Positions 18,778-56,128 of a DNA stretch of 64,000 nucleotides are shown one piece after another. Origin of the DNA: Candidatus Nitrosopumilus sp. (GTDB lineage Archaea; Thermoproteota; Nitrososphaeria; Nitrososphaerales; Nitrosopumilaceae); assembly GCA_029864335.1 (NCBI GenBank), contig JAOTTS010000006.1:1-64000 (forward strand), written 5' to 3'. Each line of letters opens with the position of its first letter. Position 1 is the first letter of the stretch. A program made the position numbers and the translations under genes. Below the pieces are notes generated by a model. It saw only the letters and a list, made by a program, of their open reading frames with translations. It was not told the origin of the DNA and ran no database searches.

Positions 18778-19521
18778 TCATTTAATTGATTCTCCTCCAT
18801 CCACAGCAAGAATTGCTCCTGTAGTCCAAGAGGCATCATCTGACGCAAAATACAATACTGCTTTTCCTACTTCTTCAGGTTGACCAATTCTGCCTATTGG
18901 GTGTTCGTTATCCATGAATTCTTTATCTTTTTGAGTTTTCAAAAATGGTTTTGTCATATCTGTATCTACTACTCCAGGGCAAATACAATTTACACGGATC
19001 TTATCTTTAGCATATTCAAGTGCCCAACATTTTGTTAGCAAAATCAATGCAGCTTTTGCTGCAGAGTATGCATCAGCATTAAATCCTTGATATGCCTTTA
19101 ATCCTGCATCTGATGAAATATTAATTATTGAACCTGATGTTTTTTGTAGATATGGAATTACCTCCTTGGTAAATCTAAACTGCCCAGTAAGATTTACATC
19201 TAAAACCTCATTCCATTCATCTTCATCAATATCATGTAGTTCCTTAATTTTTGGAAAAATTCCAGCATTATTTACAAGAATATCTATTTTACCAAATTTC
19301 TCAATTGTTTTTTCTACTACATTTTTCACATCATCCTTGTTTCTGATGTTAGCTACAATACCTATTGAATTTGGAATCTCTGATGATGCTTTCTCTAATG
19401 TTTCTTGATTTTTTGCTGTAATCACGACCGTTGCCCCATTTTCTGATAAAATTTTTGCAGTAGCTAATCCTATTCCACGACTTCCACCTGTAACTAGCGC
19501 AACTTTTCTAGATAATCTCAT
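18778..19521 (-). CDS. Short-chain dehydrogenase/reductase (FabG-like)
   Basis: 247 residues. Classical SDR: NAD(P)-binding TGGSRGIGLATA at residues about 11-22, the NNAG strand (LVNNAGIFP), catalytic Ser in INISSDAGL and the Y-x-x-x-K in AYSAAKAALILL. The closing TGAILAVDGGESIK is typical of 3-oxoacyl-ACP reductase-like enzymes. The substrate cannot be told; a keto-acid or sugar alcohol is as possible as an acyl thioester, since archaea lack a standard fatty acid synthase. Appears monocistronic. Confidence 0.85.
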   Translation of the reverse strand: MRLSRKVALVTGGSRGIGLATAKILSENGATVVITAKNQETLEKASSEIPNSIGIVANIRNKDDVKNVVEKTIEKFGKIDILVNNAGIFPKIKELHDIDEDEWNEVLDVNLTGQFRFTKEVIPYLQKTSGSIINISSDAGLKAYQGFNADAYSAAKAALILLTKCWALEYAKDKIRVNCICPGVVDTDMTKPFLKTQKDKEFMDNEHPIGRIGQPEEVGKAVLYFASDDASWTTGAILAVDGGESIK

Positions 19522-19624
19522 TAGTTTTTAGATAGAAAATCGTAATTTATATCCCAATTGACTCACAATTAGGCATAAAATATTTTATAAAACACATAAA
19601 ATTTTTATAAAATTTTATAAAAAA

Positions 19625-19635
19625 TTTTAAATACT
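19625..19635 (+). promoter_or_regulatory. TATA-like box ahead of a candidate RNA gene
   Basis: TTTTAAATACT lies in a very A/T-rich tract 25-30 bp ahead of the foldable block that begins near 19658. No coding start follows on the plus strand within 150 bp, so this promoter, if used, would drive a non-coding RNA. Confidence 0.35.
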
Positions 19636-19657
19636 TAAAGTTAGTATAGTAATTAAT

Positions 19658-19789
19658 GTCAATAGATAAAATTTCTATCGACTAGTATTGCGTAACCCCG
19701 CAGAACGAAAAAGGTAATCAGACATTTAGCATCTGAGAAAGAGAGGAAATCTCTCAAAGTTCTGCAATAAAGTGGTTTACGCCTCTTTT
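19658..19789 (+). ncRNA. Candidate structured RNA, unassigned
   Basis: Between two minus-strand genes lies a block that is clearly GC-richer than its flanks and folds with nested helices. Outer helix: GCGTAA plus CC (19690-19697) with GG plus TTTACGC (19774-19782, one bulged T). Next: GCAGAAC (19700-19706) with GTTCTGC (19759-19765), seven perfect pairs. Inside sit two hairpins: CAGA/TCTG (19719-19722, 19732-19735) and GAGAG/CTCTC (19741-19745, 19751-19755). A small hairpin ATAGA/TCTAT precedes it. A T-rich tail (TCTTTTAATTTT) ends it and a TATA-like box lies ahead, which favours the plus strand. It does not resemble tRNA, 5S, SRP, RNase P or a C/D box RNA. No ORF of note. Confidence 0.5.
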
Positions 19790-20219
19790 AATTTTGTAAA
19801 ATATCTACAGACACAGAACCCAATGTATTCCCATTTGGATTAATCATAATTGAAATTTCTTGTTTTTCAGAAATCAAAATTTCTTCTTGTCCGATATATT
19901 TCCATGTAAAATATTCAGAGATTCCTGTTTGGTGTGATGTACTTTCAAGCTTAAAATCTTCAGAAAAATCAAAATCTTCCCCATTTAATGTAATTGATAA
20001 AATTTCTGGACTACTCCCATTTGGAACAAATCTAAATGAATACTGACCTTCATCAATAAAAAATGAATTTCTATAAACTCCGTCAGAATATAAAGTATGA
20101 TCTGCAAGAGTTACATGAAACACAACATTGTTTTTCTCTATAGATTGATCTGATGCAAAATTTATTAGAAAAATACTAATGGCAACAACTATCGGAATTA
20201 TAATAATTTTTTTGTTCAC
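19788..20219 (-). CDS. Secreted or membrane-anchored hypothetical protein
   Basis: 143 residues. An N-terminal hydrophobic segment (IIIIPIVVAISIFLINFA) serves as signal or anchor. The rest is beta-rich and acidic (HVTLADHTLYSDGVYRNSFF; GEDFDFSEDFKLESTSHQTG) with no cysteines. It looks like a small extracytoplasmic domain. Its 3' end touches the T-rich tail of the candidate RNA gene. Function unknown. Confidence 0.65.
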   Translation of the reverse strand: MNKKIIIIPIVVAISIFLINFASDQSIEKNNVVFHVTLADHTLYSDGVYRNSFFIDEGQYSFRFVPNGSSPEILSITLNGEDFDFSEDFKLESTSHQTGISEYFTWKYIGQEEILISEKQEISIMINPNGNTLGSVSVDILQN

Positions 20220-56054: not shown

Positions 56055-56128
56055 TGCGGAGTGCGGGATTTGAACCCGCGGCCTTCAGCTTGGGAAGCTG
56101 ACGTCATACCAGACTAAACTAACTCCGC
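56055..56128 (-). tRNA. tRNA-Gly (anticodon CCC)
   Basis: Reading the minus strand: acceptor GCGGAGT pairs with ACTCCGC before discriminator A; the anticodon stem is TCAGC/GCTGA around the loop TTCCCAA, giving anticodon CCC; the T arm has GCGGG-TTCAAAT-CCCGC. No intron is needed. No CCA is encoded (expected in archaea to be added later). The only tRNA in the window. Confidence 0.95.

Follow-up and report, generated by a model that had tools for sequence, protein, structure and literature searches.

Several known kinds of RNA carry a short open reading frame (ORF). Bacterial dual-function small RNAs of the SgrS/SgrT type are regulatory RNAs with a short ORF whose peptide is conserved and functional, leader-peptide attenuators of the trp and erm type consist of a short translated ORF followed by RNA helices and a U-run, and tmRNA is a structured RNA with a short ORF used by ribosomes. 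Few regulatory RNAs have been described from the Nitrosopumilaceae, ammonia oxidisers of sea and soil that rank among Earth's most abundant archaea. From marine group II Euryarchaeota, an abundant, unassigned ncRNA of 229 nt, Tan1, is known (PMC5069720). Small archaeal RNAs also occur on ribosomes: two reports on Haloferax volcanii describe the ribosome-associated ncRNAs Val-tRF and rancRNA_s194 and sRNAs with ribosome occupancy, many of them without evidence of coding (PMC8938821, PMC12482152).

Here we describe a structured RNA gene of about 130 nt on the plus strand of a Candidatus Nitrosopumilus sp. sequence (the window, by which we mean the whole 64,000-nt stretch analysed; contig C46 of a 1.95 Mb assembly, GCA_029864335.1). 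Like SgrS/SgrT, it has a short ORF; those RNAs lack, however, a leaderless frame fixed at nine codons and abutting a helix, and the conserved functional peptide expected of a dual-function sRNA is not found here, where constraint on the peptide is weak (by a measure confounded by the overlapping hairpin P1). The short ORF, the helices directly after it and the U-run recall the trp and erm attenuators, but this RNA is autonomous, multi-copy and without a downstream target gene or regulatory codon run. Unlike tmRNA, it has no tRNA-like domain and carries its ORF at the 5' end; ARAGORN reports no tmRNA in the window, only a tRNA-Gly at 56055-56128. There is no Rfam match to an archaeal box C/D or H/ACA guide RNA, and the fold is a three-way junction, not guide hairpins. 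More generally, the window stretch has no match in Rfam 15 at the gathering threshold (the best at E<=10 are chance, at about 15 bits), which agrees with an initial annotation that had placed the RNA outside the common families, and ten divergent loci have none either, bar a tRNA elsewhere. To our knowledge, no described class of RNA has as its hallmark a leaderless ORF of fixed length placed against a helix. Tan1, at 229 nt, belongs to another phylum, and no relation to it has been shown (PMC5069720). The Haloferax RNAs are tRNA fragments or sRNAs, again of another phylum, and the available sections of those reports describe no fixed-length leaderless ORF with a covarying domain (PMC8938821, PMC12482152). 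The open-licence literature yielded no description of the RNA (subscription journals were outside the scope); it is the first member of an undescribed RNA family of the Nitrosopumilaceae.

The initial annotation had read positions 19658-19789 as a structured RNA gene: a GC-richer island with a seven-pair helix, two inner hairpins and an outer closing helix, between a TATA-like box and a T-run. All of these elements are present (Table 1; the helices are P3, P4 and P5, and P2, respectively), with a GC content of 37% in the RNA, 31% in the window and 13% in the 100 bases upstream, and with T at 69% in the aligned tail columns, compared with 34% over the window. P2 and P3 together make a long helix on which the hairpins P4 and P5 are borne. 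A plus-strand gene does occupy this interval, but its transcript most likely begins at 19656 and not at 19658: the TATA box ends at a distance from the A of an ATG that puts this ATG at the expected transcription start. The structured RNA gene is thus supported; what had been overlooked is a nine-codon ORF at the 5' end and a fifth helix, P1, inside it. Because this leaderless ORF is conserved, the label 'non-coding RNA gene' is probably incomplete.

Table 1 Features of the RNA gene, in window positions
Feature	Position	Strand	Remark
TATA box TTTTAAATA	19625-19633	+	final base 22 nt before A of ATG
Leaderless nine-codon ORF ATGTCAATAGATAAAATTTCTATCGACTAG (MSIDKISID*)	19656-19685	+	ATG start
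Helix P1, hairpin within ORF	19659-19681 (19659-19665 with 19675-19681)	+	
Helix P2, 5' arm	19690-19699	+	starts 4 nt past stop codon
Helix P2, 3' arm	19772-19782	+	outer helix, partner of 19690-19699
Helix P3, 5' arm GCAGAAC	19700-19706	+	
Helix P3, 3' arm GTTCTGC	19759-19765	+	
Helix P4, hairpin	19718-19736	+	sequence variable
Helix P5, hairpin GAGAGGAAATCTCTC	19741-19755	+	best-conserved element in types A-C
U-rich 3' end	19784-19797	+	probable termination region

On the plus strand, the predicted fold reaches -33.7 kcal/mol compared with -25.2 kcal/mol for shuffled sequences (z -2.5; 1 of 200 shuffles as good). A minus-strand RNA was rejected: stable as its fold is, promoter, U-tail, ORF and the conserved G-U pairs (which assign the RNA to the plus strand) all lie on the plus strand. 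We also make no claim for a helix between an AAAAAGG junction stretch and the U-tail, in which 87.8% of cells pair, yet 78-128 of 500 shuffles score as high. Ahead of the RNA, the stretch 19597-19634 is very AT-rich and partly palindromic, and positions 19598-19627 have a reverse match in the same genome.

Covariation across related genomes, above all compensatory change in GCAGAAC/GTTCTGC, had been named as the check on this structure. An alignment of 45 sequences made without reference to structure (A1) shows five helices with covariation, for example at pair 12-28 in P1 (A-U 20, U-G 14, U-A 10) and at pair 95-109 (G-C 37, A-U 8). In 65 diverse family sequences (A5), two-sided changes are seen at 32 of 36 base pairs, amounting to 273 cells where shuffled alignments give 70.6 (none of 500 shuffles as high), and 88.4% of cells are paired against 34-45% in slid controls. 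The A5 sequences were fitted to the model's structure, and their counts lean towards it; A1 agrees with them. Two-sided changes occur in all seven pairs of P1 (71.8% of cells paired), 7 of 10 in P2 (94.4%), 7 of 7 in P3 (95.1%), 7 of 7 in P4 and 4 of 5 in P5 (97.5%). The compensatory change looked for in P3 is hardly seen within the genus and emerges in every pair across the family. That this is a real structured RNA is practically certain; its transcription was not observed directly, as we had no RNA-seq data.

By DNA search, 36 of 61 relatives carry the locus, frequently as two copies. A covariance model built from A1 matches 220 of 250 Nitrosopumilaceae genomes, usually with one to three copies per genome, including 125 of 131 good family genomes and 18 of 22 genera. 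Beyond the family, no copy turned up in 300 genomes sampled across the order, in the other families among 300 genomes sampled across the phylum, or, with a broader model and lax filters, in 24 genomes from other families. The genomes are in part incomplete MAGs, and absence from a single one means little. Among records with organism names, the P3/P5 pattern occurs in Nitrosopumilus, Nitrosarchaeum, Nitrosotenuis and further thaumarchaeal MAGs, and among the P3/P5 matches listed (80 of 112) all are thaumarchaeal or unnamed archaeal records. Two records titled Nitrososphaeraceae (L174, L193) contain the RNA, though the sampled genomes of other families do not; they are perhaps mislabelled MAGs. 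Three genera (g29, g30 and g42; genomes G081, G082, G271 and G273) yielded no copy while having AmoA, perhaps by loss or because their copies are too divergent. A link to ammonia oxidation as such was rejected, as AmoA occurs both in other-family genomes without the RNA and in family genomes (g27, g29, g30, g42) for which only a weak copy or none was found. Viral carriage was rejected as well: viral contigs contain nothing that matches the P3/P5 pattern exactly, and blastn gave no match in phage records.

The window copy stands between a divergent gene at 18778-19521 (minus strand), which from our own reading of the sequence we take to be a short-chain dehydrogenase gene, and a convergent gene at 19788-20219 (minus strand), presumably encoding a small secreted or membrane-anchored protein; this gene order is conserved across genera. 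A short ORF beside helices and a U-run does look like an attenuator, and the RNA could in principle be a cis-regulatory leader, whether leader-peptide attenuator or riboswitch, of the gene downstream. We give this hardly any credence: a convergent gene lies downstream at the type A locus (43 loci) as well as at the type B one (19 loci, where the neighbour appears by eye to be PurP-like), no codon run is common to the peptides and their codons are not enriched for any single amino acid. Since no co-directional downstream gene is conserved at these 43 and 19 loci, the RNA is autonomous, with its own archaeal promoter and U-rich 3' end, which bears out the free-standing transcription unit proposed initially. 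It most likely acts in trans as an independent unit.

The ORF follows strict rules. In a blind set of copies, picked from genome contigs by the letters of P3 and P5 alone with the ORF ignored, a start codon lies 21-22 nt past the TATA box in 78 of 78 usable copies; the ORF has nine codons in 71 and eight in 7 (stops: TAA 48, TAG 26, TGA 4). In the family set of 118 copies, the TATA-to-start spacing is 21-22 nt in 112, starts are ATG (106), GTG (7) or TTG (5), and 114 have an ORF of 8-9 codons, with a stop-to-P2 spacer of 3-4 nt in 103 of these 114. Parsimony on a quick, rough tree gives about 33 stop-codon interchanges, yet the length of 8-9 codons holds in all but four copies (L115, L121, L143, L150). 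Because the copies are kin, these counts lack independence; what holds up phylogenetically is that starts, and likewise stops, have interchanged repeatedly. A pattern of the layout alone (TATA, 21-22 nt, start, 24 bases, stop-like, 2-8 nt, GCG) matches exactly four copies in the window's own genome (C46, C40, C50, C9) and nothing else there. Across six genomes, 16 of 17 matches have the family layout, compared with one match in all for the reversed control, making the RNA a strong annotation marker whose copies a single simple pattern recovers with almost no false matches.

Two kinds of exception deserve mention. In L047, L048 and L168 the first codon is ACA, GCT or ACT and the second TTG, with the stop still about 30 nt from the expected transcription start. 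The AT-rich, decayed copy L150:1131-1266 has weakened helices and a premature stop; helices and ORF have been lost together, and it is apparently a pseudogene.

One might still suppose a purely non-coding RNA whose 5' hairpin resembles an ORF by chance. P1 covaries, its pairing constrains bases that belong to the ORF as well and could partly fix the ORF's length, and a hairpin of fixed length would hold the frame. What such an RNA would not account for is the interchange of ATG, GTG and TTG at the transcription start and of TAA, TAG and TGA at the stop, where few copies have sense codons, or the lack of any comparable rule in the +1 and +2 frames, a lack also seen in the blind set. We consider this explanation very improbable. 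From these sequence patterns, it is highly probable that the ORF is translated; translation was not observed directly, in the absence of Ribo-seq or mass-spectrometry data.

The peptides themselves vary. The other three copies in the window's genome encode MSLDIQYIK* (G000:C40:1482-1621, minus strand; L052), MSLDIRHVE* (G000:C50:52656-52793, minus strand; L053) and MRKRVNFKP* (G000:C9:43182-43315, plus strand; L149). More distant paralogues, reached with a broader covariance model (R2), have different helices and even a GTG start and retain the nine codons (MRKDANSDK*, MQNRVNYNE*, VIVESLQMA*, MAEKSRQMT*). Among divergent copies, those of type D (L149, L151-L158, L132, L133, L135, L137, L142, L161, L162) retain the nine-codon ORF and P2 and have another hairpin, with the conserved loop GAGAAUGCUU, in place of P3-P5. 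In type E (L134, L144, L159, L160, L163, L164) the GTG start is constant (VIVESLQMA* and similar).

These data bear on whether the nine residues are the product, with the RNA fold controlling or stabilising their small mRNA. Start, frame and stop are retained in nearly all copies, and M-x-K-D near the N terminus is common to some types, as a peptide product would require. Across types, however, the peptides differ almost completely (MSLVVKSGD, MSKDIIPID, VIVESLQMA, MAEKSRQMT), and about 100 nt of conserved structure would serve just nine residues. Because pN/pS is 0.61 in type A (a measure confounded by the overlapping P1) and the differences between type B copies are nonsynonymous only, the peptide is, on sequence comparison, weakly constrained, and we regard a peptide product as improbable. 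Start, length, stop and distance to P2 are retained across copies while the peptides vary almost freely, which points to translation and termination, rather than peptide sequence, as what would count.

Our best reading is a trans-acting, ribosome-associated RNA in which translation and termination of the mini-ORF outweigh its peptide; this is inferred without binding data, and we put its probability at roughly 0.5. On archaeal leaderless mRNAs, ribosomes start at the 5' AUG, and the mRNA helicase of bacterial ribosomes is placed near +11. We infer that the leaderless 5' start codon would load a ribosome, which would open P1, read nine codons and terminate. Once the stop codon has entered the A site, nt 25-27 would occupy the P site (first base nt 25), and P2, starting at nt 34-35, would lie at the ribosome's mRNA entry, at about +11, so that the terminating ribosome may sit against the folded domain without unfolding it. 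As an ORF of 30 nt roughly equals one ribosome footprint in length, only one ribosome would be accommodated at a time, and the domain would stay intact beside exactly one. Less surely, the RNA may act in trans as a ribosome-associated regulator or translation sensor, perhaps holding the ribosome, with the peptide a by-product. The ribosome-coupled function as described rests on geometry, without ribosome data, and we hold it tentatively, at a little short of even odds. More doubtful, if still possible, is an RNA class that loads exactly one ribosome on a leaderless ORF of footprint length and terminates it against a folded domain, termination itself and not the peptide being the signal or action; if true, ammonia-oxidising archaea would have an RNA that senses translation or holds ribosomes. 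Ribosome association is plausible by analogy with the archaeal RNAs known from Haloferax (PMC8938821, PMC12482152); binding data are lacking.

A direct contact of P5 with the ribosome, Shine-Dalgarno-like, was not adopted and is kept only as an idea: complementarity to the 16S anti-Shine-Dalgarno is modest (-9.4 compared with -7.9 kcal/mol for shuffled sequences) and missing in several type D copies. No exact match to the 16S 3' end was found in the window's own assembly. The P5 of type E reads AGGAGGUAAUC, a near-complement of the 16S 3' end.

The same weak peptide constraint, together with a stop that always precedes P2, would also suit a mini-ORF that is merely protective, halting ribosomes loaded at the 5' AUG before they unfold the domain or guarding the 5' end from decay, while the trans-acting domain works elsewhere by protein binding or base pairing; the highly conserved letters of P5 and P3 are as expected for a protein or RNA target. 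Such protection needs no start codon, as loss of the AUG would do as well, yet the start is retained or swapped for GTG or TTG in place, and a fixed length with 3-4 nt spacing exceeds what it would need. We judge it unlikely; were protection the ORF's sole role, the RNA would better be called a new family of a known kind.

A family-wide RNA defined by a leaderless ORF whose length and distance to a helix are fixed and whose sequence is variable raises the testable question of whether translation termination can be an RNA's working step.
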